DNA from: Bacteroidota bacterium
GTDB taxonomy: Bacteria > Bacteroidota > Rhodothermia > JANXDC01
Assembly (NCBI GenBank): GCA_025059945.1
Contig: JANXDC010000004.1
Coordinates: 124,001-188,000, forward strand
Reading direction: 5' to 3'
DNA: 64,000 nt
Position numbers and translations under genes: made by a program
Part shown: positions 45,762-64,000 of the stretch, one piece after another
Layout of the letters: every line of letters begins with the position of its first letter
Numbering within the stretch: position 1 is the first letter of the stretch
Notes under the pieces: model-generated
Told to the model about the DNA's origin: nothing
Seen by the model: only the letters and a program-made list of their open reading frames with translations
Database searches by the model: none

Positions 45762-46631
45762 TCATGGCTCCGCTTGCTTGTACTCGTAAAACCCCCGTCC
45801 GGTTTTCTCCCCCAACTGGCCCGCCTCGACCATCTTCACCAGAAGCGGGCAGGGGCGATATTTCGGGTCTTTGAAGCCTTCGTAGAGCACGTTCAAGATG
45901 TGCAGGCACACGTCAAGGCCAATAAGATCGGCTAGCCGCAACGGCCCCATGGGATGGCGCATGCCAAGCCGCATCACCTGATCTATGGCCTCCGCGGTGG
46001 CCACGCCTTCGTAGAGGCACCATATGGCCTCGTTGATCATGGGCATGAGCACCCGGTTGGAGACGAAACCCGGAAAATCCCGCACCGCCACGGGCGTTTT
46101 GCCCAAACGTCGAGCCGTCTCCTCAATAACGCGAAAGGTCTCCTCTGACGTTTGCAGGCCGGAGATGATCTCCACGAGTTCCATCACGGGCACGGGGTTG
46201 AAGAAATGCATGCCGATCACCCGATCCGGACGGCGCGTGGCCGAGGCCAGGCGCGTAATCGAGATCGAGGAGGTATTGCTGGCCAGAATCGCCTCTGGGG
46301 GCGCGAGGGCGTCAAAACGCGCAAATAGCTCAAGCTTAAGCTCCACTTGTTCGGGCGCCGCCTCCACCACCAGTTCGACCTCGGTCAGGGCCGCCTCCAG
46401 ATCCGCGTGCGCCTGGATGCGTCCAAGGGCCGCCTCCTTGTCCCCCTTCGGGATGAGGCCCTTTTGGATCTGCCGATCCAGGTTGCGCTCGATGGTGCGC
46501 AGGGCGCGCGCTATTGCCTCGGGGGCGACGTCGAAGAGCCGCACCGAGAAGCCATGCAGGGCGAAGACGTGCGCGATTCCGTTGCCCATGGTGCCAGCGC
46601 CCACCACGGCGATGGATTTCGGTAATCGCAT
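45762..46631 (-). CDS. 3-hydroxyacyl-CoA (3-hydroxybutyryl-CoA) dehydrogenase
   Basis: 289 residues. The NAD-binding motif is AVVGAGTMGNGIAHVFALHG (residues about 9-28). Active-site regions are ILASNTSSISITRLASATRR (Ser/Asn), VIGMHFFNPVPVMELVEII (catalytic His), and VRDFPGFVSNRVLMPMINEA (start of the C-terminal dimerisation domain, about 185). Length matches single-domain Hbd/PaaH enzymes rather than the FadB fusion. With the acyl-CoA dehydrogenase downstream it supplies two steps of short-chain acyl-CoA oxidation; a thiolase and enoyl-CoA hydratase are not in the window. Confidence 0.95.
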   Translation of the reverse strand: MRLPKSIAVVGAGTMGNGIAHVFALHGFSVRLFDVAPEAIARALRTIERNLDRQIQKGLIPKGDKEAALGRIQAHADLEAALTEVELVVEAAPEQVELKLELFARFDALAPPEAILASNTSSISITRLASATRRPDRVIGMHFFNPVPVMELVEIISGLQTSEETFRVIEETARRLGKTPVAVRDFPGFVSNRVLMPMINEAIWCLYEGVATAEAIDQVMRLGMRHPMGPLRLADLIGLDVCLHILNVLYEGFKDPKYRPCPLLVKMVEAGQLGEKTGRGFYEYKQAEP

Positions 46632-46895: not shown

Positions 46896-48236
46896 ATGGT
46901 GCCGGGATGGGTGTGGGGGGTTGGCCTGTTATGGGGGGCCGACTCGCTGGTGCTGACGCTTCCTGGGGCTTTGGAGCGAGCCCTGGAGCGTTCCGCGGAG
47001 TTGCGGGCAACGGCCGTCGAGGTGCGGCTGGCCGAACTCGAACGCGAGCGCGCGCGCGCGTTGCGTTGGCTGCCCGAGCTCAGCTTGCGCGGGTTCTTGA
47101 CCCTCACCCCGTCGGCTCAGGGCGATTACCGAGACCCTGATCTCTCCTGGGATTGGTCGCGCCCCGGTCCTTTCAGCCAATGGGTTCTGGAGGCGCTGCA
47201 GCCCATCTACCTCTGGAACCGCACCGGTGCCCTGTATGAGGCCGCGGCGGCGGCCCAAGAAGCCGCCGAGCAGGGACGTGCGCGCAAAGCCGACGAGATC
47301 GCCTTCCGGGTGGCGCAGCTTTACTACACGAGCCTATACCTGCGGGAGCTCGAAGCACTGCGTCAGGAGGCCGAGGGGCTGCTGCGGCGCGCCCTGCGCC
47401 TGCTGGATAGCTTGTTTGCACAAGGCGAAGAGGGCGTGCGGCAGGCGGACTTGTACAAGGCCCGGTTGCTTCAGGAGCAGTTGCGGTTGCGCGCCCTTGA
47501 GCTAGAGCGGCAGCAGCGGGTCTTGCAGGAAGGGTGGCGGCTACAGCTCGATCTTCCGGAAGGCGTTCGCGTCTACCCGGCCGACTCCGCGCTGCGCCGG
47601 GAACCGTATTTCCTGCGACCTCTGGCCGACTATGTGGCCTTGGCCCTGGATCAGCGGCCCGAACTACGGGGGCTAGGGGCGGCTCTTGCCGCCGCCATGG
47701 CCACGCACCGGGCCACCCAAGCCGAACGCCTGCCCCAAGTCTTTTTCGGCCTGCGCGGCGAGTGGAGCATGGCCCCTCATGTGTCGAGTTTTCGCAATCC
47801 GTTTGTTTACGATCCTCTGAACGCGCGTTACGTGGGCGCGGGCGTGGTGATTCGGCAGAACCTGAACTTCCGGCAAAGCGCGCTTGCGCTAAAGCGAACG
47901 CGGGCGCGCGTAGAGCAGCTGCAGGCGCAGCGGGAGGCGCTGCAACAGGCCATACGGGCCGAGGTGACCCAGGCTTGGGCCGAATTTGCGGCCAAGGATA
48001 GCGCCTGCGCGGCGCTGGAGCGCGCCCTTCAGGTGGCCAACGAATGGCTGCGCACCGAGGAGATCAACTTCGATCTGGCCTTGGGCAGCGCCAAGGATCT
48101 GGTGGAGGCCGTGCAGAGTCAGTTTGAGCTGCGCATGGCGCTATATACCACGCTCTATGAGCGCCAGCTGGCCTGGCTGCGCTTGCAGCAGGTCTCCGGG
48201 CGCCTGCGGGCGGAACTACTGGCGCGAAAGGAGTAA
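46896..48236 (+). CDS. TolC-family outer-membrane protein (lipid-export operon)
   Basis: 446 residues. A short signal peptide (WVWGVGLLWGADS) is followed by two long TolC-type repeats of paired helices and barrel strands: ALERALERSAELRATAVEVR, PELSLRGFLTLTPSAQGDYR, FRVAQLYYTSLYLRELEAL, then QRPELRGLGAALAAAMATHR and NFDLALGSAKDLVEAVQSQF. Outer-membrane efflux channel or periplasmic tunnel. It differs clearly from the second TolC gene at 59857. First of eight same-strand genes ending at 56231; the MlaC-like gene starts 4 bases after its stop. Confidence 0.9.
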   Translation: MVPGWVWGVGLLWGADSLVLTLPGALERALERSAELRATAVEVRLAELERERARALRWLPELSLRGFLTLTPSAQGDYRDPDLSWDWSRPGPFSQWVLEALQPIYLWNRTGALYEAAAAAQEAAEQGRARKADEIAFRVAQLYYTSLYLRELEALRQEAEGLLRRALRLLDSLFAQGEEGVRQADLYKARLLQEQLRLRALELERQQRVLQEGWRLQLDLPEGVRVYPADSALRREPYFLRPLADYVALALDQRPELRGLGAALAAAMATHRATQAERLPQVFFGLRGEWSMAPHVSSFRNPFVYDPLNARYVGAGVVIRQNLNFRQSALALKRTRARVEQLQAQREALQQAIRAEVTQAWAEFAAKDSACAALERALQVANEWLRTEEINFDLALGSAKDLVEAVQSQFELRMALYTTLYERQLAWLRLQQVSGRLRAELLARKE

Positions 48237-48240
48237 AGGA

Positions 48241-48840
48241 ATGCTGCGGTTTGGCTGGGGGTTTCGCACGGCGCTTCTTCTGCTGGGCGCCGTTTCTGTC
48301 GCCAGGGGCCAGGGCGAGGAGGCGCGGGTCCGCGCGCTTCTGGAGGCCCGCGATCGCCAAATCAAAGCCATCCTGGGTCCTCAGGGAGCGAGCTATAGCT
48401 CTGAGCAGCGGGAGCGGCTCAAGGGCGTGCTTACGGAGCTCATGGATTTCGAAGCTATGGCCCGCGTGGCCCTCGGCCCATGGTGGGAGCGGATCAGCGC
48501 AGCCGAGCGAACTCAGTTTGTGAGCGCCTTTCGACGGGTGATAGAGGAAAATTCCCTCAAAAACCTGGATATTTACCGCGCCCGCGTCGCCTACGAGGGT
48601 ATTCGCGTGGTGGGCGATTCCGCCTACGTGCAGACCCGCGCCGCCTTGGAGCGCACGAGCGCGCGCGTCGATTATGTTCTGCGCAAACGCGGGGCCGCGT
48701 GGGTGATCGTGGATTATGTGCTCGATGGGGTCAGCACAGCCCAGAGCTACCGTCGTTCTTTTGAACCCGTGCTTCGATCACGCGGATTTCACTATCTCCT
48801 GGAGCGCCTGCAACGTCGGGCGCGTCCAGCATCCTCTTAG
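48241..48840 (+). CDS. MlaC/Ttg2D-family periplasmic lipid-binding protein
   Basis: 199 residues with a signal peptide (LLLLGAVSVARGQ). The MlaC fold is recognisable by VLTELMDFEAMARVALGPWW, RTQFVSAFRRVIEENSLKNL, and the paired strands YVQTRAALERTSARVDYVLR and AAWVIVDYVLDGVSTAQSYR ending near SFEPVLRSRGFHYLLERL. MlaC shuttles phospholipids across the periplasm; the paralogue HpnM is tied to hopanoid transport with an RND partner. No MlaA, B, D, E or F genes are here, but an MMPL/RND exporter lies later in the same operon, as in HpnM-HpnN systems. Confidence 0.87.
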   Translation: MLRFGWGFRTALLLLGAVSVARGQGEEARVRALLEARDRQIKAILGPQGASYSSEQRERLKGVLTELMDFEAMARVALGPWWERISAAERTQFVSAFRRVIEENSLKNLDIYRARVAYEGIRVVGDSAYVQTRAALERTSARVDYVLRKRGAAWVIVDYVLDGVSTAQSYRRSFEPVLRSRGFHYLLERLQRRARPASS

Positions 48841-48864
48841 GCAAGCCAAAGGAGCCAGGCCAGC

Positions 48865-49893
48865 ATGTCAAGTCGCGATATTCCCCAAGCTTTTGGAGAA
48901 GAGGGCTACTTATACGTCACCTACGGGGACTTACGATACCTACGGCATGCCGTGGCCTCTGTGGTCACGCTGCGCCGTTACGATACATCCCGACCGGTCG
49001 CCCTGGTTTGTTCAGAGGCGCACCGGGAGGCCCTTCGGGCTCGCGCTCTGGAGGGGCTCTTTGATCTCCTGTTGCCGCTGGCCCCCGAGCACGCCTCGGT
49101 CGTAGGGTTTAAGCACAACTTTTATCGGTATCTACCCTTTCAGCGCACCCTGTACGTGGACGCGGATCTGATCTGGTGCCGCGCTCCGGATCCGCTTTGG
49201 CAGCACTTGCGGGCCTATTCTTTTACGATCACCGGCACCCAAGTAGCGGACATCTTCTTCGGGGGGCCCAAGGACGTGCGCGTGCTTTGGGATTGGCTGC
49301 TCAATCGCCGCCAACGCACGCTCAATCGCTTCGGCCTCACCTACCTAAGCCGCGTGCAGGCCGGTATGATGTTTACGCAGGATCGGGATCTGGCCCGTCG
49401 GGTGGGTGATTTGGCCGCCTACTTTCTGCGCCAAATGCCCCAGACGCATTTTCGCAGCCGTCGGCAGGAGGTGGGGCGCTCTGAGGAATCGGCCGAATGG
49501 AGCCTAGCCATGGCGATGGCCAAGCTAAACCTGCCCGTTTTCCCCTGGTTGCAGGGCCAGGAAAGCCCGCAGCTGGATTTCGTGGCGGATTTTACCGAAT
49601 ACGATCCGGATTTTGAGCGCGTCTCTGTACTGTACTACTGTCGGCCCCTGCTGTATGCGCTGCGCAGCTATCGACCCGCTTGGCTGCGCACGCTGCTCAT
49701 GGGTCTACTTAGCCTGCTACCGGGATGGGGGGATTATCTGTATGTGACTCCGTACGCCCTGCATTTTGGCATACTGCCGGAGAAGGGGCCCTTTGACGCC
49801 TTCGCCGACCGGCTGTGGGCAGAGCTGACGCTCACAGCCGCCCCGCTAAACGGAACCTCTGAGGAGCCCGCCCTTTCGGCCCAAGTTCTGTGA
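48865..49893 (+). CDS. Glycosyltransferase-like protein (GT-A fold, GT8-like)
   Basis: 342 residues, weakly similar to nucleotide-sugar transferases. The first 120 residues look like a GT-A domain: GYLYVTYGDLRYLRHAVASV, RPVALVCSEAH, YRYLPFQRTLYVDADLIWCR with a DxD-type metal site (DAD), and FGGPKDVRVLWDWLLNRRQR. The C-terminal third carries a hydrophobic amphipathic stretch (LRTLLMGLLSLLPGW) that may attach it to membrane. Specific family uncertain. Lies 24 bases after the MlaC-like gene and touches the following GT2 gene. Confidence 0.65.
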   Translation: MSSRDIPQAFGEEGYLYVTYGDLRYLRHAVASVVTLRRYDTSRPVALVCSEAHREALRARALEGLFDLLLPLAPEHASVVGFKHNFYRYLPFQRTLYVDADLIWCRAPDPLWQHLRAYSFTITGTQVADIFFGGPKDVRVLWDWLLNRRQRTLNRFGLTYLSRVQAGMMFTQDRDLARRVGDLAAYFLRQMPQTHFRSRRQEVGRSEESAEWSLAMAMAKLNLPVFPWLQGQESPQLDFVADFTEYDPDFERVSVLYYCRPLLYALRSYRPAWLRTLLMGLLSLLPGWGDYLYVTPYALHFGILPEKGPFDAFADRLWAELTLTAAPLNGTSEEPALSAQVL

Positions 49894-49895
49894 CC

Positions 49896-50684
49896 ATGGC
49901 CCTTCCCAAAGTGAGCTGTCTCATGGTAACCGCTGACCGCCCCCTGTGGGTGCGGCGGGCTGTGCGGTGTTTTCAGTGGCAAACCTGGCCTCACCGGGAG
50001 CTCGTCGTGCTCGACGACGGGCAAGAGGACCTAAGCCCGATTTTGGCTGAATTGCCCCCTGAACAAGTCCGATACGAGCGCCTCCGAGGACCCCGCAAGC
50101 CCCTTGGGGCGCTCCGGAACCTGGCCCTGGAGCTCGCCACGGGCGACTACTGCATACAATGGGACGACGACGATTGGTACCACCCCGATAGAATCCGGGT
50201 GCAGATGCGCTACGCCCTCATGGGCTATGAAGCTGTGCTGCTGGGCCACACGCTCATGCATCTGGACGTTCCGTTATGGCGAAAACACCCCTTTCGGGCC
50301 TGGCTGCCCCACGGCACCCCCGGCACGATCCTGCACCGCCGCGACCTGCGCATGCGCTACCCGGAATGGGCTCGTCAGGAGGATACGGCTTATCGGGACC
50401 AATGGCGCTCCCGACGGGTGCGGGTGTTGGGGCGCCGCTATGCGTATCTGTTCATCCGCTGCTACCATGGGCGCAACACCTGGGACCTGGCCCATTTTCT
50501 TGTGCGGCTGCGCAACCATCCCCTTGGATACCTGGCTTACTGGTATGCGCGGCTTCGGGGCAGCTGGGCGCATCACCCCGCCTTCCGCTTAAGCCCTCAG
50601 GAGCAGCTGGCCTTCGCCCAGTTTGAGCGCGACACGCAAATCGTACGACAAGAACATGCCTCCTTTTATGCGGGAGCTTCTTAA
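49896..50684 (+). CDS. Glycosyltransferase family 2 (lipid-export operon)
   Basis: About 262 residues. N-terminus VSCLMVTADRPLWVRRAVRC, then ELVVLDDGQEDLSPILAEL, LELATGDYCIQWDDDDWYHP (DDD metal/sugar site) and LPHGTPGTILHRRDLRMRYP, then an acidic catalytic segment RQEDTAYRDQW. Typical small GT2 with a basic, aromatic tail. A GTG six bases upstream overlaps the previous stop as GTGA and is an alternative start. The end overlaps the next gene by 29 bases. Confidence 0.88.
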   Translation: MALPKVSCLMVTADRPLWVRRAVRCFQWQTWPHRELVVLDDGQEDLSPILAELPPEQVRYERLRGPRKPLGALRNLALELATGDYCIQWDDDDWYHPDRIRVQMRYALMGYEAVLLGHTLMHLDVPLWRKHPFRAWLPHGTPGTILHRRDLRMRYPEWARQEDTAYRDQWRSRRVRVLGRRYAYLFIRCYHGRNTWDLAHFLVRLRNHPLGYLAYWYARLRGSWAHHPAFRLSPQEQLAFAQFERDTQIVRQEHASFYAGAS

Positions 50685-51624
50685 ACGGGTTGCATGCGCT
50701 CTTAAGTCCTCCTCTTGGAGCCGGTGGGCTTCGGCGCTGTTCCTCTGGGGCGCAATCGGGCTTTCCCTCTATCACCTGGGCCAGCTGGGGTGGGAGAAGA
50801 TCGCCGCCAAGCTGCCCACCTCCCCCTGGTTTTATGGCCTTTTTTTAGTGCTTTACCTTTCCTTGCCGCTCTCGGAGCTATGGGTGTACCGCAGGCTCTG
50901 GCGGTTCCCGCTCCGGGAGGGCTTGCGCGCGTTTCTGGTCAAAAAGGTCTATAACCGCGATCTACTGGGCTACTCCGGAGAGGCCTATTTGCTCTTCTGG
51001 GCTCAGCGTGTAGCCGGCGTCTCCCCTCGGCAGGCCTGGTTGGGGGTCAAGGACAACAATCTGCTTTCGGCTCTTATCTCAAGCATCACAGCTGTCGGCA
51101 TTCTGCTGGCGTTGTTGTTAAGCGACGCCACCTTGGCCGGCCGGCTCCTGCCGAGAGCGGACCGCCTCTCCTGGGCCGCATGCGCCTTGGGGTTGCTCTT
51201 ACTTGGCGCGATCGCATACCGGTTTCGGAGGGTTCTTTTCCAGTTGCCCCGTCGCGTGCTGCTGGAGCTAGCCGGGGTGCATACGGGGCGGCTGATCCTG
51301 GTGCACGCGCTCACCGTGTGCATGTGGTGGGCGGGCGCCCCGGAGGTGCCCCTGAGGGGATGGTTGACGTTGCTGGCGCTCGATATCCTGTCGGCCCGCC
51401 TGCCGGCTCTGCCGGGCAAGGACGTGCTGGTAATGAACCTGCAGATCGCCCTGGCCGGGTCGTTGGCCCTGCCGGCTGCGGCGGTGGCGGCGCTGTTTTT
51501 GGCGCAAACCGCTCTGGATAAGCTGCTCAACGTGCTGGTGCTTCTCCTACAGGTCGGCAACCTTAGCCCCCGGGGTGCGTTTAAAGGGGCGCAAGCGTCC
51601 GCATCGGAGACGCATCTTGCCTGA
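50656..51624 (+). CDS. Polytopic membrane protein, YbhN/LPG-synthase-TM-like
   Basis: About 322 residues and at least seven predicted membrane helices, including WASALFLWGAIGLSLYHLGQ, FYGLFLVLYLSLPLSELWVY, LISSITAVGILLALLLSDAT and WAACALGLLLLGAIAYRF. The C-terminal part holds TGRLILVHALTVCMWWAGAP and LPALPGKDVLVMNLQIALAG. The layout recalls the UPF0104/YbhN flippase-like family associated with lipid-modifying enzymes, but the match is only to general pattern. ATG 50656 or 50668 are both possible starts. Likely flips or couples a glycolipid across the inner membrane, by context. Confidence 0.6.
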   Translation: MPPFMRELLKRVACALKSSSWSRWASALFLWGAIGLSLYHLGQLGWEKIAAKLPTSPWFYGLFLVLYLSLPLSELWVYRRLWRFPLREGLRAFLVKKVYNRDLLGYSGEAYLLFWAQRVAGVSPRQAWLGVKDNNLLSALISSITAVGILLALLLSDATLAGRLLPRADRLSWAACALGLLLLGAIAYRFRRVLFQLPRRVLLELAGVHTGRLILVHALTVCMWWAGAPEVPLRGWLTLLALDILSARLPALPGKDVLVMNLQIALAGSLALPAAAVAALFLAQTALDKLLNVLVLLLQVGNLSPRGAFKGAQASASETHLA

Positions 51625-51638
51625 AGCCGGAGGCTATC

Positions 51639-52424
51639 GTGGTCCTTTCGGGTCCTTCTCTGTGGGTGCTAGCGGGTTGGTTGTGGGGCGCTGAGCCCCA
51701 AGGGATGCCCCGCCTCGGGGACTGCCTGCCGCCCTTGAGGAGGCCCCTTCCGGGATCCGCCGTGCTCATCGAGGATTTCGAGCTCGATCCCCCTGGGCAT
51801 TGGCCCCAGGCGTGGGGGGCGCTTGAGGATCGGCGGCTGCGCCCTATTACGGCTCAGGATACGGCGGCCGGCCGATATCCGTTTCGGATCCGACGGGAAT
51901 GCGACAACCAATTCGTGCGCGTGCGCACCGAAGGGATCTGGACCTACGTGCTCTATCCGAACGGCGAGCGCCGGATCTGGAACCTGCACACCCATCCGGT
52001 GCTCTACTGGAACTGGCGCGTGCGCCGGCTCCCCCGGGGCGCGCGCGAAGACCAAAGGGCCATAGACGATTCCGCCGCGGGCCTTATGATCACTTTCTCC
52101 GTCAACGCCCTGGGCGTTCCTCGCACGATCCGATACGTTTGGAGCAGCACGCTTCCCGTGGGCACGGTCCTCTCTAAGGGCGTCTGGGGGAACCTCAAAA
52201 TCGTGGTGGTGGCCAGCGGCCCCGAGGGGCTCAACCGGTGGATGAGTCTCGTCCGGGATGTGCGGCAGGACTACCGCCGCCTCTTCGGGGGTGAGCCTCC
52301 GGCGATTCCGCTTGCCATCGGGCTGTGGTCGGACTCCGACTCCACTCAGGATCAATCAGAGGCGGACTTCGACAACCTGATCGCGCTTCCGAGCGCTGAG
52401 CTGGCCATGCGGCTGCTGCCATGA
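51639..52424 (+). CDS. Secreted DUF3047-family protein
   Basis: 261 residues, GTG start with CGGAGG six bases upstream, and an N-terminal hydrophobic segment (LWVLAGWLWGAEPQG) as signal or anchor. The DUF3047 pattern is clear: VLIEDFELDPPG at the start, the block VLYWNWRVRRLPRGAREDQR, DDSAAGLMITFSVN, RYVWSSTLPVGTVLSKGVWG and NLKIVVVASGPEGLNRWMSL, ending with AIGLWSDSDSTQDQSEADFD. It folds as a beta sandwich that could bind sugar or lipid head group. Function of the family is not established. Its stop overlaps the exporter start as ATGA. Confidence 0.85.
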   Translation: MVLSGPSLWVLAGWLWGAEPQGMPRLGDCLPPLRRPLPGSAVLIEDFELDPPGHWPQAWGALEDRRLRPITAQDTAAGRYPFRIRRECDNQFVRVRTEGIWTYVLYPNGERRIWNLHTHPVLYWNWRVRRLPRGAREDQRAIDDSAAGLMITFSVNALGVPRTIRYVWSSTLPVGTVLSKGVWGNLKIVVVASGPEGLNRWMSLVRDVRQDYRRLFGGEPPAIPLAIGLWSDSDSTQDQSEADFDNLIALPSAELAMRLLP

Positions 52425-55012
52425 ACGCCTTGTTCGCCCGCCTGGCTCCGCATCTGGTGCGCCTGTATCGGCGCTCGGGATGGGTCTTGCTGGCGGCCGG
52501 CTCGCTCAGCCTTCTGGGGGCCTATTACGGTCTTCGGCTGCGCATCGATACGGATCTGGCCAACCTGCTGCCGCGGGAGACCCCCAGCGTGCTCGCCCTG
52601 GAGCGGTTGCGCCAGACCCTAGGCGCGGAATCCAAGGTGCAGGTTATCATCCAGAGCCCCTCTTTTGCGGCGAACTTGGCCTTTGCCCAAAGTCTTATCG
52701 AGGCCGCGCGCTCCCTGCGCGACACCGTAACGGGGGAGCCGTTTTTTCGGCGCATCGACTTTGAGCGCGATCCGGGCCCGTTGCGCACCAAGGCGCTCTA
52801 TCTGGCCACTGAGCAGGAGCTAGAGGCCTTAAAGCGCTTTCTGGAGCGTGAGGCCGAACGGGCTCGGTTGCGCGCCAACCCGTTTTTTTTCGAGCTCGAA
52901 GAAGAGCCCGATAGCGCCGAGCAGGCCGTCTGGATGCGAGAGCGCAGCCTGCTGCAGGACGCCTATAATACAATCCTGCCCAAGCGCTACCCGATCTCGG
53001 AAGACAGTACGGTCATGATCGTCGAGCTCGTCCCCGTGGGGAGCGAAATCGACGTGGGGTACGTGCGCCGGCTCTATGAGCGGTTAGAGCGGTTGGTCGG
53101 GGAGCTAAGGCCGGCGCGCTATCATCCGCAGATGCATGTGGAGCTCGGAGGGCGCATGCGCCGGCGGCTTTTCGAACTAGAGGCCGTCACCCATGACGTC
53201 TTTTCCAGCTTCGCGGCCGGCTTCTCCTCGGTGCTTGCGCTGCTAGCCGGATACTTTTGGCTTAAAGCCGCTCGGGCCCGCATTCGGGCCGGCTTCTCCA
53301 AGCGCCGGGCCTATCTGGAGGAGCTTCTGCGCGTTCCGGTGCCGCTGCTGCTTATCGGGCTTCCCCTGCTGATGGGCCTGAGCTGGACCTTCGGGTTGGC
53401 TTGGTGGCTTTTCGGCAAGCTCAACCTCATGACGGCCGTGCTGTTTGTGATCCTATTCGGTATGGGCATCGACTACGGCATTCACGCCTATGCACGCTAT
53501 ATAGAGCTGCGTACGCGGGGCGACGACGTCTTCGGGGCCCTGGAGCACCTCATCCGTTGGGTGGGGCCCGCCATCGCCACAAGCGCGCTCACCACGGCCG
53601 CCTCCTTATACGTGCTCGTGTTCGCCCGCTTTCGGGGCTTTTCGGAGTTTGGCTTCATAGCGGGCACGGGCGTGCTCTTCGCCCTCGTAGGCGCGCTGCT
53701 TATCTTGCCGGCCCTTCTGGTTTGGGCGGAGCGCTTTCGACTCGTGCACCTCCCCCCGGCGGTGACCCCGCCGAAGCGGGCCGCCTCTCCTGCGGGACGC
53801 TTCCCGGCCCCCCGGTTCGTCTTGGGCCTGGGCTTTGGGCTTTCCGCGATATGCCTTGCGGCTTTGCCCCGTTTGGGATTCGAGTACGACTTCGGCAGGC
53901 TAGAGCCCGAATTCCCCGAGTACGCCCATCTGCGCGAGCTTGAGGTTCGGGTCTTTGGCCTGGTGCAGAAGCGCAACCCGGCCTACGTGATCACCGCTAG
54001 CCCAGAGGACGCCGCCGCCGTGGCCGCAGAGCTGCGCCGTCGCATGGCGGCCGACACGAGCTCGCCTACGATCCTTTCGGTTGAGGCCCTGGCCGAGCGC
54101 TTGCCCGTGGATCCCGAAACGCAGCGGCGCAAGCTCGCCCTGCTGGCCGAGATCCGAACCCTGCTTGAGGACCCTTTTTTGCGAGGCGCGCAGGGCGAGG
54201 AGCAGGCGCTTCTGGATCGGCTGCGGGAGGCGGCCCAGGTTGACCGCCCCCTTCGGGTCGAAGAGGTGCCGGATTACCTCAAGCAGCTTTTCCTTACCCG
54301 GGAGGGGACGCTGGGCAACTTTGTGGTGATCTACCCCGCCGTGGGCCTTTCGGACGCCCGCAACTCCATCGCCTTTAAAGAGGACGTGGGGCGCATCGCG
54401 CTTCCCAACGGCAAGGTTTACTATGCGGCGAGCTCCTCGATTGTCGCCGCTGACATGATCGAGCTCATGCAAGCCGAGGCCCCGTATATGGTGGGGGCGA
54501 CCCTGGGCGTGATCGTGCTCCTTATGTGGATGACCTTTGGCTCGCTGGGCTGGACCTTCATCGCCCTTCTGCCCCTTCTGGTGGGCTTCGGGTGGCTTTT
54601 CGGGCTTATGGGGCTGGCCGGGGTTCTGCTGAACCTGTATAACATCACCGTGCTTCCCGCCGTGCTCGGAATCGGAGAGGACAACGGGGTGCACATCACG
54701 CATCGCTACCAAGAGGAGGGCCCGGGCGGTCTGTTCCGGGTACTGCGCAGTACCGGGCAGCATATTACCATCGGCTCGGCCACGACGATGTTGGGCTTTG
54801 GGGGTCTTTTTACCACCTTCCACCCTGGACTGTGGAGTATGGGCTTTGTGGCCTTCTGGGGCGTGGGCTTGACGCTCCTGAGCGCCTTGTTGCTTCTGCC
54901 CGCTTTGTTGCAGTACTTGGAGGACACAGGCCGACTGCCCCGAAAGGGCTGGCATGTAGGGGGTTCGATCCCAGAAGGCCAGGCGCTCCGGCCTGACGGT
55001 TTGCGAAGCTAA
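52421..55012 (+). CDS. MMPL/RND-superfamily lipid exporter
   Basis: 863 residues and twelve predicted membrane helices with two large periplasmic loops. The first helix is followed by LRIDTDLANLLPRETPSVLA. The proton-relay motifs of the MMPL group are GMGIDYGIHAYARYIE in helix 4 and GIGEDNGVHITHRYQEEGPG in helix 10. It matches the COG1033/HpnN-like branch that carries lipids such as hopanoids or carotenoids, not the drug-exporting AcrB branch. No hopanoid biosynthesis gene is visible in the window. Coupled to the DUF3047 gene; GT4 follows by 16 bases. Confidence 0.9.
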   Translation: MNALFARLAPHLVRLYRRSGWVLLAAGSLSLLGAYYGLRLRIDTDLANLLPRETPSVLALERLRQTLGAESKVQVIIQSPSFAANLAFAQSLIEAARSLRDTVTGEPFFRRIDFERDPGPLRTKALYLATEQELEALKRFLEREAERARLRANPFFFELEEEPDSAEQAVWMRERSLLQDAYNTILPKRYPISEDSTVMIVELVPVGSEIDVGYVRRLYERLERLVGELRPARYHPQMHVELGGRMRRRLFELEAVTHDVFSSFAAGFSSVLALLAGYFWLKAARARIRAGFSKRRAYLEELLRVPVPLLLIGLPLLMGLSWTFGLAWWLFGKLNLMTAVLFVILFGMGIDYGIHAYARYIELRTRGDDVFGALEHLIRWVGPAIATSALTTAASLYVLVFARFRGFSEFGFIAGTGVLFALVGALLILPALLVWAERFRLVHLPPAVTPPKRAASPAGRFPAPRFVLGLGFGLSAICLAALPRLGFEYDFGRLEPEFPEYAHLRELEVRVFGLVQKRNPAYVITASPEDAAAVAAELRRRMAADTSSPTILSVEALAERLPVDPETQRRKLALLAEIRTLLEDPFLRGAQGEEQALLDRLREAAQVDRPLRVEEVPDYLKQLFLTREGTLGNFVVIYPAVGLSDARNSIAFKEDVGRIALPNGKVYYAASSSIVAADMIELMQAEAPYMVGATLGVIVLLMWMTFGSLGWTFIALLPLLVGFGWLFGLMGLAGVLLNLYNITVLPAVLGIGEDNGVHITHRYQEEGPGGLFRVLRSTGQHITIGSATTMLGFGGLFTTFHPGLWSMGFVAFWGVGLTLLSALLLLPALLQYLEDTGRLPRKGWHVGGSIPEGQALRPDGLRS

Positions 55013-55028
55013 CAGGGCCGAGACGACG

Positions 55029-56231
55029 ATGTCGGCTACCGCATTGCGTGTTGCCCTTTTTACGGGCAATTATCATTACATCCCCGACGGGGTGGCGCTC
55101 ACGCTCAACCGGCTGGTGCGGTTTCTGCTGGAGCGGCGCATCCCCGTGCTGGTCTTTAGCCCCACTGCGCCCCGACCTGCTCTGGAGCCAACCGGAGAGC
55201 TGGTACCCGTTCCTTCGGTGCCCGTGCCGGGGCGGGCGGAATATCGGTTCTCGATCCCCTTCTCCCCCCGCCTCTGGCGCCGGCTGCGCGCCTTTGGGCC
55301 CACGCTACTGCACGTGGCTACCCCGGATCTGCTGGGTCTGATGGCGCTTCGCTATGGGCAAGGGCATGGGATCCCGGTCGTGGCCTCCTATCATACCCAC
55401 TTTGCCAGCTACCTCAAGTACTATCGTTTTGACGGCCTGGAGCAGACCAGCTGGCGCTACTTCGTCTGGTTTTACAATCAATGCCAGCACGTATACGTGC
55501 CCACCCCGGAGATGGAGCGGGAGCTGCGCGCCCACGGCGTGGAAACCGAAATCCGACGCTGGGCGCGCGGCGTGGACACGGATCTTTTTCACCCCGCCCG
55601 TCGCTCCGAGGCCTGGCGGCGTATGGTCGGGGTTCAGGATCGGGAGCGGGTCGTGCTTTTCGTCAGCCGTCTCGTGCAGGAGAAGAACCTGCCCACGCTC
55701 AAGGCCGTCTTTCAGCAGCTGCACGCTCTGGAGCCGGAGCTTCGATTTGTCGTCATTGGAGACGGTCCGGAGCGAGAGGAGCTGGCCCGCGCCCTGCCGT
55801 TTGTGCGCTTTCTGGGGCATCAAACAGGAGAGGCGCTCGCCACAGGGTACGCCTCAAGCGATGTGTTCGTATTCCCCTCCGATACGGAGACCTTTGGCAA
55901 CGTTACGCTGGAGGCTATGGCGAGCGGCCTGCCGGCCGTATGCGCCGACGCCGCCGGCAGCCGCTTCTTGGTCCGACATGGACAGACGGGTTTTCTCTGC
56001 CCCCCCTACGAGGTGGAGGCTTACGTGGAGCGAATCCGGCTTCTGTTGCGCGATGAGCCCCTGCGGCGGCGTATGGGGCAGGAGGCCCGCCAGTGGGCGG
56101 AGACTTTCGCCTGGGAGCGCGTCATGGATGAGCTCCTGGGGCATTATCGGGATGTCCTGCAGAGTCAGACGTCCATGGTCCCGGCGCTAGAGGCGGTTGC
56201 ATCCCCGGTAGGGAACGCTAAGTCGCCATAA
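55029..56231 (+). CDS. Glycosyltransferase family 4, MgtA/SqdX-like
   Basis: 400 residues, GT-B fold. N-terminal half: VALFTGNYHYIPDGVALTLN and VASYHTHFASYLKYYRF (the conserved YHTHF). C-terminal half: VVLFVSRLVQEKNLPTLKAV, FVVIGDGPEREELARALP, and SDTETFGNVTLEAMASGLPA, all typical of the branch that glycosylates lipids (MgtA, SqdX, PimB types). A lipid acceptor is inferred from the family and from the neighbouring MlaC and MMPL genes. Final gene of the operon; its end overlaps the convergent monooxygenase gene by 14 bases. Confidence 0.9.
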   Translation: MSATALRVALFTGNYHYIPDGVALTLNRLVRFLLERRIPVLVFSPTAPRPALEPTGELVPVPSVPVPGRAEYRFSIPFSPRLWRRLRAFGPTLLHVATPDLLGLMALRYGQGHGIPVVASYHTHFASYLKYYRFDGLEQTSWRYFVWFYNQCQHVYVPTPEMERELRAHGVETEIRRWARGVDTDLFHPARRSEAWRRMVGVQDRERVVLFVSRLVQEKNLPTLKAVFQQLHALEPELRFVVIGDGPEREELARALPFVRFLGHQTGEALATGYASSDVFVFPSDTETFGNVTLEAMASGLPAVCADAAGSRFLVRHGQTGFLCPPYEVEAYVERIRLLLRDEPLRRRMGQEARQWAETFAWERVMDELLGHYRDVLQSQTSMVPALEAVASPVGNAKSP

Positions 56232-57438
56232 GAGGCGCTTGCCAACGCAGGCCTACTTGGGCTAGCAGGGCCTCCAGCGCTTTTCCCGTGGCGGGCAGGC
56301 TATAGAGCAACTCCAGCCGGTGTGCTCGTGTCCAGGCTGAAGCCGTATCGGTGGCCTCCGGTTGGATCGTCACCCCTAATAGCGCTTCCCAGGCGGCCTG
56401 CGCTCTGGCCCCATAAGCCTCGAGCGACGCCTCCGTGGCGTTGCCCGACAGGATCGCCGCTATGCTCTGGGCTAGCTCCTCGCCCTCTTCAAGCCCCCGG
56501 TTCATGCTCTGCACACCAAAAGGCCAGCTCAGGTGCGCTGCGTCGCCCACCAGCCACATGCGGCCCGAGCCGAATCGATCGGCCAAACGGCGTTCAAAGC
56601 GGGCCTTGGACATCCACACGATTTCGAAGGGGATCTCGGCCCACCACGGGGCGCGGCTGCGCAGGAGTTGCTCGAACCACTCGGGGTTGATAGGCAGGCT
56701 CACCTGTCCGGCGTCGATCTGGAAGCTCCACCGGTACAAGCCGTGACCCATCGGCCAGAGGGCGCTGCCCAAGGATCCGTCAAACTGCAGGCGCAGTTCG
56801 TCGGGCAAAATCGCCGGGGTCCGGAATTCGAAGACCGCGTAATAGGTAGCCTCCCCGAAAGAGGAGTACTCGATTCCAGCCGCCCGACGCACGAAGGAGT
56901 GAAATCCGTCTGCCCCGATCACAAAGCGGCTTTCGAGCTCCCGCACATGGGCTACGCTTTGCACGAGTTCCAGTATAGGGTATCCCTGCATGGTTTGCGT
57001 CAGCGTGGCTATGCGCACCCGCACGCTATCTGGCCCGGAAGTGGCCTCAACTAGCTCATGATACCACTCCACGGGCTGATGCTGGGCGCGCAGGTGATGT
57101 TCCAAAATGGCCTCCAGGGAGCTTTGCGGGAGCACAAGCACGTAGGGATGCCGGCTGGGCAGGCTCGTTAGGTCTAGCTCGGCCTGCAGGGTAGATCCCT
57201 CGTAAAGCCCGATCCGGCTGATGCGGTGGCCGCGCGTTAGTGCGTCCTCGAGCAGGCCCGCAGCCTCTAGGAGCTCCAGGGAACGGCTGTGGAGGGCTAA
57301 GGCGTAACTGTGCAGGTTGGTGCGTTGGGCTCGATCGATGAGCCTTAGTTCGCGCACACCGAGCTGGTGTAGCCGCAGGGCCGTCCATAGCCCCACGGGA
57401 CCGGCCCCCACCACAAGAACATCTAAGCGGGATTTCAT
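56218..57438 (-). CDS. FAD-dependent monooxygenase (PHBH/UbiH fold)
   Basis: 406 residues. Rossmann FAD motif VLVVGAGPVGLWTALRLHQL (residues about 7-26), the DG motif VIGADGFHSFVRRAAGI (about 180), and the GD motif MWLVGDAAHLSWPFGVQSMN (about 293), in the order expected for aromatic or polyene hydroxylases. Substrate unknown; family includes ubiquinone, phenol, tetracycline and lipid-ring hydroxylases. It converges with the lipid operon, so it is not its member. A separate promoter is expected in the 219-base gap upstream, where a short inverted repeat (AATTTGGT/ACCAATT) is the only visible element. Confidence 0.88.
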   Translation of the reverse strand: MKSRLDVLVVGAGPVGLWTALRLHQLGVRELRLIDRAQRTNLHSYALALHSRSLELLEAAGLLEDALTRGHRISRIGLYEGSTLQAELDLTSLPSRHPYVLVLPQSSLEAILEHHLRAQHQPVEWYHELVEATSGPDSVRVRIATLTQTMQGYPILELVQSVAHVRELESRFVIGADGFHSFVRRAAGIEYSSFGEATYYAVFEFRTPAILPDELRLQFDGSLGSALWPMGHGLYRWSFQIDAGQVSLPINPEWFEQLLRSRAPWWAEIPFEIVWMSKARFERRLADRFGSGRMWLVGDAAHLSWPFGVQSMNRGLEEGEELAQSIAAILSGNATEASLEAYGARAQAAWEALLGVTIQPEATDTASAWTRAHRLELLYSLPATGKALEALLAQVGLRWQAPLMAT

Positions 57439-59214: not shown

Positions 59215-59841
59215 GTGAGCACACTTGAGCTTTCGCGCCGGGAGCGCGAAAAACAGCAGCGACGCAACGAGCTATTGCAAGCGGCCCGCCAGGTTTTTGC
59301 CGAGCGCGGATACGAGGGCGCTACGCTAGAGGAGATCGCCCAACGAGCCCAGCTCGGCAAGGGGACCGTATACAACTACTTCCCCAGCAAGCAGGAGCTT
59401 TTCTTCAGCATTTTGGACGAGGTCCACGCGCAGGGTCTGGCCTTGGCTAAGGCCGTTATGAGTCGCCCATTGCCCCTTCAGGAGAAGTACCGCCAGTACA
59501 TGCTGGAGGCCATTGGGCTCTTTCAAGACAACCTGGACCTATTCCAGATCCTCATCAAAGACGGTCAGCGGCTGCTGCTGGAGGCGTCTCAGCGCGAGGC
59601 CGGCCGCTACTGGATGCACAAACATCAGGCCCTGGTGGAGGTGCTGCGTCAGCCCTTGGAGCAAGCCATCGCGGAGGGGCAGATTCGGCCCCTTGCCCCT
59701 AGCGGCGTGGTGTACATGATTCTGGGGGCGGTGCACCATTACATGATGCTCACGGCGCGTCAAGAGGAGGCGCCGCGCCCCGAAGAGCTGGCCGATTTCG
59801 TGGTTTCGGTGCTTTTTGAGGGGCTTTTACCGAGAAGCTAA
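59215..59841 (+). CDS. TetR/AcrR-family transcriptional regulator of the RND efflux operon
   Basis: 208 residues. N-terminal helix-turn-helix: RNELLQAARQVFAERGYEGA, TLEEIAQRAQLGKGTVYNYF, PSKQELFFSILDEV (residues about 17-66). The C-terminal ligand-binding domain contains LFQILIKDGQRLLLEASQRE and GVVYMILGAVHHYMMLTARQ. GTG start with GGAAGG upstream. It heads the tetR-tolC-membrane fusion-RND set with gaps of only 13-15 bases, so it most likely represses its own efflux operon through the palindrome upstream. Confidence 0.93.
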   Translation: MSTLELSRREREKQQRRNELLQAARQVFAERGYEGATLEEIAQRAQLGKGTVYNYFPSKQELFFSILDEVHAQGLALAKAVMSRPLPLQEKYRQYMLEAIGLFQDNLDLFQILIKDGQRLLLEASQREAGRYWMHKHQALVEVLRQPLEQAIAEGQIRPLAPSGVVYMILGAVHHYMMLTARQEEAPRPEELADFVVSVLFEGLLPRS

Positions 59842-59856
59842 AGAAGGGAATCCACT

Positions 59857-61227
59857 ATGCGTGTCCTTACCCTGATAGGGCTTTGCTGTTTGGGTCCCAT
59901 ACCGGTCGAAGCCCAAAGCGCAGGGCGGCCGCTTCGATTGGAGGATGCTCTGCAGATAGCCTTGGATCGCAACCGTCAACTGCGGGTGGCCGTGCTCGAG
60001 TGGGAGCGCGCCCAACAGCAGGTGCGCGAATCCTGGGGCAACGTCTACCCTGAGATCACGGCGCAGACGCAGTACACGAACAACGTCAGGCGTCCGGTTT
60101 TCTTCTTCCCGGATTTCACGGCCGAGCCGGGCCCGGATGGCAAGCGTCCCCTGCGGCCCATCACGGTGGGGGCGCTTAACGCCTGGAACACCGTCCTTAC
60201 GGTTCGGCAAGCGCTCTTTCAGGGTCAAGTCTTTGTGGGGCTCGGTGTGGCCCAAGTGTACGAAGAGTTGGCTGAGGAGGCCCTGCGCGGCTCCAGCCTG
60301 CAGGTCGTCACGGCCGTCAAACAAGCTTTCTACGGGGTGCTGCTGGCACAGGAGCAGCTGCGCCTGGTGCAGCAGAGTATAGAGCGGACCGAGGCCGCCC
60401 TGCGGGAAGCCCGGGCCCTGCAGGCCCAGGGGCTGGTTTCCGGCTATGACGTGCTGCGTCTGGAGGTGCAGCTGGCAAACTTGCAGCCCCAGCTGATCCG
60501 GACACAGAACGGGGTAGAGGCAGCCAAAAACGCTCTAAAAGCCCAGATCGGCTTGGATGTGGAGGCTCCGATCGAAGTCTCGGGCGCCTTGGCCTATGCC
60601 GACGCGCGTCCGATACCGAGCCTAGAGGAGGCTTTCGCTATAGCCCAGGAGCGGCGCTCGGATCTGCGTCAGGCGCGGATTCGGGCGCGCCTGGAGGCGC
60701 AGCGCGTGGCGGCCGAGCGCGCCGCTTTGTATCCGAGCTTGTACGCCTTCGCCAGTTGGCAGGGGCAGGCTCAAGGCGAACAATTCCGCTTCTTCGGCAT
60801 GGGGGACCCCCAACAGCGTTTCGTGAGCAGTTTGGCCGTTGGGCTGCAGCTGCAGGTGCCGATTTTTTCGGGCTTTCGCCGCATCGCTCGCATCGAGCAG
60901 GCGCAGCTGGGCTATCGACAGGCGCGGACCCAACAGGAGCAGCTTGAGGAGCTGGCCAAGGCCGAGCTGCGGACTCTGATCGGCAACCTGCGCGAGGCCC
61001 TAGCCCGCGTAGAGGCTCAGAATCGGGCCGTAGAACAGGCGCGAAAAGGCTATGAGATCGCCCGTGCTCGATATCGCGAGGGAACCGGTAGCCAACTAGA
61101 GATCACCGACGCCGAGTTTCTGCTTACACAGGCCGAAGTCAATCGACTGCAGGCCATCTACGATGCCCTCATCGCCCGGGCCGAGCTGGATCGGGCGATG
61201 GGCCATGTGCCCGAAATCGAAAAGTAA
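59857..61227 (+). CDS. TolC-family outer-membrane efflux protein (RND operon)
   Basis: 456 residues, signal peptide 1 to about 17 (ends IPVEAQ). Two TolC repeats: LRLEDALQIALDRNRQLRVA, YPEITAQTQYTNNVRRPVFF, VTAVKQAFYGVLLAQEQLRL and AREARALQAQGLVSGYDVLR-like helix, then EAFAIAQERRSDLRQARIRA, QVPIFSGFRRIARIEQAQLG and EIARARYREGTGSQLEITDA (the family's C-terminal motif). Outer-membrane channel of the tripartite pump whose fusion and pump genes follow. Confidence 0.94.
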   Translation: MRVLTLIGLCCLGPIPVEAQSAGRPLRLEDALQIALDRNRQLRVAVLEWERAQQQVRESWGNVYPEITAQTQYTNNVRRPVFFFPDFTAEPGPDGKRPLRPITVGALNAWNTVLTVRQALFQGQVFVGLGVAQVYEELAEEALRGSSLQVVTAVKQAFYGVLLAQEQLRLVQQSIERTEAALREARALQAQGLVSGYDVLRLEVQLANLQPQLIRTQNGVEAAKNALKAQIGLDVEAPIEVSGALAYADARPIPSLEEAFAIAQERRSDLRQARIRARLEAQRVAAERAALYPSLYAFASWQGQAQGEQFRFFGMGDPQQRFVSSLAVGLQLQVPIFSGFRRIARIEQAQLGYRQARTQQEQLEELAKAELRTLIGNLREALARVEAQNRAVEQARKGYEIARARYREGTGSQLEITDAEFLLTQAEVNRLQAIYDALIARAELDRAMGHVPEIEK

Positions 61228-61240
61228 AGGAGCTAGATCC

Positions 61241-62356
61241 GTGCACACACTGCGGTTGCTTTCCTACGGCATTGGCGCTCTCGTGCTCATCGGATGTCAG
61301 CGCCCCGAGGCGGGCGGCTCTGCGCGCTCACCCCAGGAGACCACGATCCAACTTCAGCCGGCCGCCGCCTCGGAGCGCATCCTGAATGTGGAGGTCACTC
61401 CCCTGCAAGAGAAGCCCTTTGACGCCTTTTTGCGGCTTACGGGCACGGCGGCGGCTTATTACGATCTGCGCCTGGCCGCAGAGGAGGGCGGGCGTGTGGC
61501 CAAGGTATACGCCGACAAGGGCGCCTACGTCTCGGCCGGAGGGGCTATTGTAAAGCTCGATGACACGCTCTTGCGCACGGCTCTCGAAGAGGCCGAGGCG
61601 TCTCATGAACTAGCCAAGGAGACCTACGAGCGGCAGCGGCGCCTGTGGCAGGAGGACTCGATCGGAACCGAGCTTCAGTACCTGCAGGCCCGCTATGCGT
61701 ATGCGGCCGCCCGTTCTAAGCTGGAGACGCTGCGCGCCCGCCTGGAGAAGACCGTCGTGCGCGCCCCGGTCTCGGGGATTGTGGATCGTCTTTTCGTGCA
61801 TGAGGGCGAAATGGCCGCTCCCGGCGCCCCTGTGGCTCGTTTGGTTCACGTGGACCGGATCAAGGTCACGGCCGGGGTGCCGGAGCGCTGGGCTGAAAGG
61901 ATTCGGCCGGGCATGCCTGCGCAGCTGTCCTTCGACGTCCTGCCGGGCAGAACGTTTCGGGGTCGCATTGCTTACGTGGGCCCATCCATCGATGCGCAAA
62001 ACCGCACGCTTCCGATCGAGGTGGAGATCCCCAATCCCGGTCGGCTGATCAAGCCTGAGATGGTGGCCGAGCTCCGAATCTTGCTAACGCGCCTGCCGGC
62101 CGCCCTCGTGGTTCCCAAGGCCGTGCTGGTGCGCACAGAAGCCGGCTTCCAGGTTTTCGTGGCCGCTCGGCAAGCCGATGGCTCTTATCGGGCCGAGGCG
62201 CGCCGGGTGGAGCTGGGCCCTGAAAACGAAACCGAGGTCGTCGTAACCAAGGGTCTTGCTCCCGGAGAGCTGCTTATCACTGTCGGATACGAGAAGCTCA
62301 ATCCCAACGACCGGGTCCGGATCCTGAACCCGGTTCAACCCGTGGCGATCAAGTAA
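61241..62356 (+). CDS. RND efflux membrane-fusion (periplasmic adaptor) lipoprotein
   Basis: 371 residues. GTG start with AAAGGAG eight bases upstream. Lipoprotein signal LVLIGC, with Cys at about residue 19. Barrel-sandwich halves LAAEEGGRVAKVYADKGAYV (about 83-102) and VVRAPVSGIVDRLFVHEGEM, separated by a coiled-coil hairpin (about 120-170). Beta-barrel domain: KVTAGVPERWAERIRPGMPA; C-terminal proximal domain: KAVLVRTEAGFQVFVAARQA. Connects the TolC channel to the RND pump. The open frame extends upstream into tolC without support. Confidence 0.94.
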   Translation: MHTLRLLSYGIGALVLIGCQRPEAGGSARSPQETTIQLQPAAASERILNVEVTPLQEKPFDAFLRLTGTAAAYYDLRLAAEEGGRVAKVYADKGAYVSAGGAIVKLDDTLLRTALEEAEASHELAKETYERQRRLWQEDSIGTELQYLQARYAYAAARSKLETLRARLEKTVVRAPVSGIVDRLFVHEGEMAAPGAPVARLVHVDRIKVTAGVPERWAERIRPGMPAQLSFDVLPGRTFRGRIAYVGPSIDAQNRTLPIEVEIPNPGRLIKPEMVAELRILLTRLPAALVVPKAVLVRTEAGFQVFVAARQADGSYRAEARRVELGPENETEVVVTKGLAPGELLITVGYEKLNPNDRVRILNPVQPVAIK

Positions 62357-62369
62357 GGAGACCCCGATT

Positions 62370-64000
62370 ATGGCCGCTGTGCAGCAGGGTTTTCCGGGAA
62401 ACGGAGCTTCAGGGCCGCGCAGGTTTGGGCTCACGGAATTGGCCGTACGCTATCGAACCGCCGTTTTCGTGCTCGTGGGCCTCATCGTAGTGGCCGGTTT
62501 GATGGCCTACGTGAGCGTGCCCAAGGAGTCCGCCCCCGAAGTCGAGGTGCCGACCATCATCGTCGCCACCCCTTACCTTGGGGTCTCTCCCGGAGACATC
62601 GAGACGCTCGTCACCCGGCCCATCGAGACAGCCCTGAAGGCCATACCCGGGGTGAAGCAGATCACCTCCAAGTCCCGAGAGGGCTACAGCCAGGTCACCG
62701 TCGAATTTGTGGCCGGCACCAACATGGAGGAGGCGCTGCAGAAGGTCCGGGAAAAGGTCGCGCTGGCCAAGACGAAGCTTCCGGCCGACGCCGATGAGCC
62801 CGTCATCCAGGAGATCGATTTCTCCCAGTTCCCGATCCTACAGGTGAACATATCCGGCGACTACAGCCTCGTAGTGCTCAAAAAGATCGCCGACGACCTC
62901 AAGGAGCGTTTTGAGCAGGTCCCGCAGGTGCTCGAGGTGACCGTATCGGGCGGGCTGGACCGAGAAGTGCAGGTCTACGCCAGCCTGAACCGGCTTAAGT
63001 ATTACAACCTCACCTTCACGGATCTGGTGAACGCCATTCGGGCCGAAAACCTCACCATACCGGGCGGGAATATCGACTTCGAAAGCCGTCGCTTTGCGGT
63101 GCGCGTGCCTGGGGAGTTTCGCGACCCCCTGGAAGTCCAGGACTTGGTGGTAAAAACCGTAAACGGCCGGCCCGTGTATGTGCGCGACGTGGCGGTGGTG
63201 GATTTCGGCTTCCGGGAGCGCTCCAGTTACGCCCGCTTAAACGGGCAGCCGGTGGTGACGCTTTCCGTCAAAAAGCGAAGCGGAGAGAACATTATCGCAA
63301 CGGCCGAGCAGATTAAGGCCATCTTGGCCCAGGTCAAGCCCAGTCTGCCGCCCGGGGTGCGGATCGACATCACGGGCGATCAGTCCAAGACGATCGCCGT
63401 CATGGTGCACGACCTGCAAAATCACATCATCGCCGGGCTTATTCTGGTGGTGGCCGTGCTGCTCTTCTTCATGGGCGTGCGCAACGCCGTGCTCGTAGGC
63501 GTGGCGATCCCGATCACGATGCTGCTCACCTTCATCGTGATCTGGGCCCTGGGCTATACCATGAACATGATTGTGCTCTTCAGCCTGGTGCTCGCGCTGG
63601 GGATTTTGGTCGACGACGCGATCGTGGTCGTGGAGAACATCTACCGCTACGTTGAGGAGGGCTACGATCGCGTTACAGCCGCCCGGTTGGCCACGGCCGA
63701 AGTGGCCGTGCCCGTGATCACGGCCACGCTCACGATTTTGGCGGCCTTTTTCCCGCTGCTTTTCTGGCCGGGCATCGTGGGCGAGTTCATGAAGTACCTG
63801 CCCATCACGGTGATCATCGCCCTTACTTGCTCTCTGTTTGTGGCCCTTGTGATCAATCCGGCCATAGCGGCCACGTTTATGCGTCGGGAGGGCGAGCGCG
63901 GCCCCGGCCTGCATCGCAACGCCAAGATTTTGCTCGCCCTGGGTATGGGCCTTTTCGGCCTTCTGGCCCTGCTCGTAAGCTGGGTGACGTTTCTGGTCTT
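62370..64000 (+). CDS. RND-family efflux pump, AcrB/HAE type (3' end outside the window)
   Basis: Starts at ATG 62370 with AAGGAG upstream and is open to the end of the window (about 543 codons visible). First membrane helix AVFVLVGLIVVAGLMAYVSV, then the conserved periplasmic segment PYLGVSPGDIETLVTRPIET. Membrane helices 2-4 include LILVVAVLLFFMGVRNAVL and the proton-relay pair Asp-Asp in LVLALGILVDDAIVVVENIY, then helices 5-6. The motif set matches the multidrug/cation AcrB-like superfamily. Thirteen bases after the adaptor gene. Substrate unknown. Confidence 0.95.
   Translation, partial: MAAVQQGFPGNGASGPRRFGLTELAVRYRTAVFVLVGLIVVAGLMAYVSVPKESAPEVEVPTIIVATPYLGVSPGDIETLVTRPIETALKAIPGVKQITSKSREGYSQVTVEFVAGTNMEEALQKVREKVALAKTKLPADADEPVIQEIDFSQFPILQVNISGDYSLVVLKKIADDLKERFEQVPQVLEVTVSGGLDREVQVYASLNRLKYYNLTFTDLVNAIRAENLTIPGGNIDFESRRFAVRVPGEFRDPLEVQDLVVKTVNGRPVYVRDVAVVDFGFRERSSYARLNGQPVVTLSVKKRSGENIIATAEQIKAILAQVKPSLPPGVRIDITGDQSKTIAVMVHDLQNHIIAGLILVVAVLLFFMGVRNAVLVGVAIPITMLLTFIVIWALGYTMNMIVLFSLVLALGILVDDAIVVVENIYRYVEEGYDRVTAARLATAEVAVPVITATLTILAAFFPLLFWPGIVGEFMKYLPITVIIALTCSLFVALVINPAIAATFMRREGERGPGLHRNAKILLALGMGLFGLLALLVSWVTFLV

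Follow-up and report, generated by a model that had tools for sequence, protein, structure and literature searches.

Eight genes, all on the + strand and either overlapping or separated by gaps of no more than 24 bases, occupy positions 46896-56231 of the window, that is, of the whole 64,000-nucleotide stretch of DNA that was analysed. They are referred to below as A to H.

46896..48236, + strand: A, TolC/OEP-family outer-membrane protein of 446 aa (Pfam OEP, 6.2e-35)
48241..48840, + strand: B, periplasmic lipid carrier of the MlaC/HpnM family with a signal-peptide-like start (Pfam MlaC, 3.3e-29)
48865..49893, + strand: C, putative GT-A (GT8/glycogenin-like) glycosyltransferase with a DxD motif (no Pfam family)
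49890..50684, + strand: D, GT2 glycosyltransferase (Pfam Glycos_transf_2, 2.2e-14)
50656..51624, + strand: E, polytopic membrane protein that may be a flippase or the partner of one (no Pfam match)
51639..52424, + strand: F, DUF3047 protein, predicted to be exported, with a CBM-like beta-sandwich (Pfam DUF3047, 5.8e-30)
52421..55012, + strand: G, HpnN/HAE3-type MMPL exporter of the RND superfamily, 863 aa (Pfam MMPL, 2e-32)
55029..56231, + strand: H, GT4 glycosyltransferase of the putative lipid-acceptor type (Pfam GT4, 1.4e-39)

The earlier note had described a tightly packed, same-strand operon, and all of its open reading frames and junctions were recovered from the sequence. Genes A and B are 4 bases apart, with B starting at the ATG at 48241, and the gaps between B and C, E and F, and G and H measure 24, 14, and 16 bases, respectively. 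The C-D and F-G pairs each overlap by 4 bases, and the overlap of D and E amounts to tens of bases, depending on whether the TTG at 50623 or the ATG at 50656 serves as the start codon of E. Since both flanking genes (45762-46631 and 56218-57438) lie on the - strand, the operon is a bounded unit. The families named in the note (TolC, MlaC, GT2, DUF3047, MMPL, and GT4) were each matched by Pfam, which gave a clear assignment for six of the eight proteins (A, B, D, F, G, and H); C and E matched no Pfam or NCBIfam model. Motifs of the catalytic type were intact in C (DxD), D (DDD), H (EX7E), and the MMPL protein G (GIDY and GED). In the host genome (2.14 Mb, 16 contigs), MlaC, DUF3047, and the full-length HpnN-type MMPL are each present in a single copy, and all three copies lie in the operon. 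The same eight genes were found in identical order in KatS3mg041 (AP024675), a member of the same genus, with 57-82% protein identity (70% for protein A). Thus, the co-location of three single-copy genes and the preserved gene order demonstrate that the operon is real and that its grouping goes beyond chance.

Structure prediction was most informative for C and F. The AF2 model of C was of moderate quality (pLDDT 75), and its best Foldseek match was glycogenin (8.5e-8), with LgtC at 1.4e-6; UGGT and xyloside xylosyltransferase were also matched, and all top matches were GT8-like or GT24-like GT-A enzymes, at a TM score of at most ~0.5. The DxD motif corresponds to D99-A-D101, and both aspartates were invariant in 11 relatives. 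At the level of the fold (TM <=~0.5), the model therefore supports the GT-A-like nature of C proposed in the earlier note, and we do not claim membership in family GT8. The model of the DUF3047 protein F was confident (pLDDT 89) and matched the beta-sandwich of D-glucuronyl C5-epimerase, of CFAP20-type proteins, and of CBM11/CBM30 (E 6e-7 to 7e-4, TM <0.65). Its fold and signal-like start make F likely to be a periplasmic protein of the sugar-binding type. The best NCBIfam model for H was GlcN-PG synthase (180.8 bits against a cut-off of 480), and the alpha-GlcDAG synthase model was matched as well, so that H is nearest, below the cut-off, to phosphatidylglycerol and diacylglycerol glycosyltransferases. 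This proximity and the presence of three glycosyltransferases speak for the glycosylating role that had been suggested for the operon.

Members of the MMPL family export envelope lipids. The best model for G was HpnN (TIGR03480, 227.6 bits), although the score was far below the cut-off of 752, and HAE3 and BstA followed with 165 and 155 bits. The best PDB match was likewise HpnN (6wu0, 8e-24), and the acidic motifs GIDY and GED are located in TM4 and TM10. By its sequence, G is a lipid-type MMPL protein grouping with HpnN and HAE3; affiliation with drug or heavy-metal RND pumps, which would have spoken against the proposal, was checked and not found. Protein B scored 67.5 bits with HpnM (cut-off 160) and 23.5 bits with the E. 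coli-type MlaC model, both under the cut-off. The operon thus resembles the HpnM/HpnN hopanoid transport system in combining a HAE3-type MMPL with an MlaC-family protein nearer to HpnM than to MlaC, but differs from it in containing glycosyltransferases, DUF3047, and TolC in a genome without squalene-hopene cyclase. As both scores are below the model cut-offs and squalene-hopene cyclase, the marker used for hopanoid biosynthesis, was missing, the operon was not assigned to that system, and at most it may work in a similar way. The relationship to the sterol transport system BstABC is limited to the MMPL protein, whose BstA score lies far below the cut-off of 1400, and no sterol context was found. 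The mycobacterial MmpL lipid exporters belong to the same family, with a weaker match of G to MmpL4/5; however, the operon represents a different branch with different partners in a Gram-negative-type cell.

The MMPL family was present in 187 of the 196 class genomes. Counts of C were made in a draw from the phylum, comprising 98 genomes of the class and 297 from the rest of the phylum: C was encoded in 75 of the former and in none of the latter. DUF3047 of any kind occurred in 75 genomes, all of the same class, and fell into two score groups (>~200 bits and ~80-130 bits), the copy in the window belonging to the lower. Around the lower-scoring group, an MMPL gene was found within 20 kb in 25 of 31 loci, and F and G were same-strand neighbours in 22 of the 31. 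In a set of 46 loci that contain C and span at least 15 kb, MlaC comes immediately after TolC in 34 loci, and C immediately after MlaC in 32. Two modules, TolC-MlaC-GT and DUF3047-MMPL, thus recur across Rhodothermia/Balneolia. In Balneolales, the TolC-MlaC-C trio follows the ATP synthase genes, with E, glycosyltransferase genes, DUF3047, and MMPL within ~10 kb; in many Rhodothermales, the trio lies apart from DUF3047-MMPL, beside ftsZ/ftsA/murC (named by sequence inspection). Orthologues scattered without linkage were looked for, and linkage conserved across the class was found instead, which favours the reading of the eight genes as one functional unit.

Several further observations were made in these loci. 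In five loci of Balneolaceae (L069, L073, L074, L076, and L077), the genes next to a high-scoring DUF3047 paralogue encode two RND pumps of the AcrB type and a membrane-fusion protein. DUF3047 is therefore found with RND-superfamily pumps in two different contexts and may be a general RND companion; it was rejected as a marker of the operon system, given that the high-scoring group sits beside AcrB-type pumps or elsewhere. A conserved pair of genes for a ~160 aa exported-type protein and a ~300 aa membrane protein, neither with a Pfam family, recurs with the relatives' loci (L037:10717-12092, L063:10631-12012, and L122:12042-13419), whereas the window operon showed no such pair. In MAGs labelled Saprospiraceae (L122, L132, L137, L155, L159, and L161), C occurs with E and without TolC or MlaC; the labels or the binning of those MAGs may be wrong.

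The loci of relatives additionally contain Wzi capsule-assembly proteins, a Wzx-type flippase, a sulfotransferase, a methyltransferase, and more GT4 enzymes, and some of them Wzz and Wzy/O-antigen ligase-type genes. In one of the MAGs labelled Saprospiraceae, C and E directly follow Wzx-, Wzz-, and Wzy/ligase-type genes. Such gene company is that of a surface glycan pathway and suggests that the product is a glycan or glycolipid of the cell surface. We compared the distribution of E and the flippase in 26 non-duplicate loci containing both C and MMPL. Only E was present in 16 loci and only the Wzx-type flippase in nine, one locus had neither, and none had both (Fisher p 3e-6, kinship ignored); a maximum-likelihood MMPL protein tree shows at least three switches between these two states, with well-supported branches. 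Because E and the flippase replace each other, E is probably the protein that flips the product, or is linked to that step, in agreement with the flippase-like role suggested earlier. However, both travel in larger cassettes, E tending to occur with GT2 and sulfotransferase genes and the flippase always with the methyltransferase, so the exclusion may reflect the type of glycan and not equivalent function. The YbhN-like identity that had been given to E fared less well: E matched no Pfam model, that of the LPG_synthase_TM/YbhN family included, and the hhalign match to E. coli YbhN (E 3e-4, probability 38%), a weak N-terminal one, is suggestive at most. E was accordingly rejected as a firm YbhN homologue.

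LpxC catalyses the committed step of lipid A synthesis. It was absent from all 98 class genomes and present in 290 of the 297 from the rest of the phylum, with control genomes as expected; judged on LpxC, the class therefore seems to lack lipid A made by the known pathway. In the literature searched, with partial journal coverage, we found no paper stating the absence of LpxC in Rhodothermota/Balneolota and no published answer to what occupies the outer leaflet in these groups. Chemotaxonomic studies have reported glycolipids in Fodinibius (PMC12260241) and in Salinibacter, Salinivenus, and Salisaeta (PMC5167729), and Rubricoccaceae (Rubricoccus and Rubrivirga) were reported to be without them (PMC5167729). 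A glycolipid or lipid-linked short glycan fits best as the cargo.

Taken together, we propose, with a probability of about 0.5, that the eight genes serve to synthesise a surface glycolipid or short lipid-linked glycan and to deliver it to the outer membrane in diderm cells lacking LpxC-dependent lipid A. In this scheme, H, D, and the GT8-like C would glycosylate a lipid at the cytoplasmic face, the acceptor probably being diacylglycerol or a phospholipid. E, standing in for the Wzx-type flippase of relatives, would then move the product across the inner membrane, and the HpnN-like G would draw it from that membrane, helped by the exported, carbohydrate-binding-like F as a cargo selector or chaperone. 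In the last and weakest step, B might ferry the product to the outer membrane, with the TolC-family protein A joining at the end. These four steps would be the most economical account of the firm facts, namely gene content and order, linkage, families, fold classes, the mutual exclusion of E and Wzx, and the absence of LpxC and squalene-hopene cyclase.

The separation of the two modules in many Rhodothermales means that the operon may instead hold two systems, in which TolC and MlaC, together with MlaFED encoded elsewhere, would serve phospholipid homeostasis, and DUF3047-MMPL with the glycosyltransferases would handle a glycoconjugate. A complete MlaE-MlaF-MlaD set lies on another contig of this genome (C1, L173:8630-11088) with no MlaC beside it, the MlaC gene being on contig C4, and MlaE was found in 24 of 24 genomes tested; MlaC may thus serve MlaFED. 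The view that MlaC is an orphan necessarily belonging to the MMPL protein is weakened by this finding. The operon also shares an MlaC-family carrier with the Mla system (MlaFEDB-MlaC-MlaA), but here MlaC sits with TolC and glycosyltransferases, apart from MlaFED. The linear RND-MlaC-TolC route put forward in the earlier note consequently finds no support in the gene content, as no membrane-fusion protein is encoded among the eight genes and MlaFED lies on another contig. Against a division into two systems, C mostly follows MlaC even where the modules separate, and all modules stand together in Balneolales and in the present lineage. We estimate the chance that two systems are involved at roughly half that of the single glycolipid pathway.

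A capsule or exopolysaccharide locus, with a long polysaccharide as the product and MMPL, TolC, and MlaC serving indirectly, appears unlikely. The Wzi, Wzx-type, Wzz, and Wzy-type genes and the sulfotransferase in the loci of some relatives recall Wzx/Wzy-type surface polysaccharide loci and would suit such a function; however, the window operon contains none of these genes, nor Wza or an ABC exporter, and has an MMPL exporter instead. Moreover, three glycosyltransferases suit a short glycan, and MMPL and MlaC are families of the lipid type.

Still less probable is that the system delivers a terpenoid, such as a carotenoid glycoside, to the outer membrane. The nearest relatives of the MMPL protein are hopanoid and sterol transporters, and phytoene synthase is encoded in this genome. 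However, squalene-hopene cyclase gave no match in this genome or in KatS3mg041 and was found in only 2 of 27 genomes tested, which contradicts the hopanoid idea of the earlier note and rules out a hopanoid cargo. The carotenoid idea is not favoured either: phytoene synthase occurs class-wide, equally in genomes without DUF3047, it is missing in one holder of the locus (G291), and the gene neighbourhoods of relatives show no recurrent carotenoid gene. Neighbours of 449 and 504 aa in relatives, considered as phytoene desaturases, were rejected, since Pfam identified them as TrkA/TrkH.

Least probable is an ordinary efflux or drug-resistance operon: an RND-superfamily pump does occur with TolC, but glycosyltransferases are present, the operon has no membrane-fusion protein, the HpnN-like pump is near-universal in the class, and a normal AcrB-type tripartite system with its own TolC is encoded shortly after the operon. 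The latter, at 59215-64000 and beyond the end of the window (L087), comprises a TetR-type regulator, the second TolC, a membrane-fusion protein, and the AcrB-type pump, and by its gene families is an ordinary tripartite efflux system.

Returning to the surface glycolipid pathway, a bolder and clearly more tentative form of it would place the locus at the heart of a glycolipid pathway for the outer membrane that is independent of LPS and has replaced lipid A in the whole of Rhodothermia/Balneolia, with the MMPL-DUF3047 exporter and an MlaC-TolC outer branch doing the work of Lpt. The operon is a conserved combination of known families that is undescribed as far as the literature searched shows. 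If the proposal is true, it would name the machinery by which a large diderm lineage without LpxC builds its cell surface, assign DUF3047 and the class-specific glycosyltransferase C their first roles, and make E a new candidate flippase family. The content of the outer leaflet in Rhodothermota/Balneolota thereby becomes a testable question, and the operon is a candidate source of the surface molecules that these cells carry in place of LPS.
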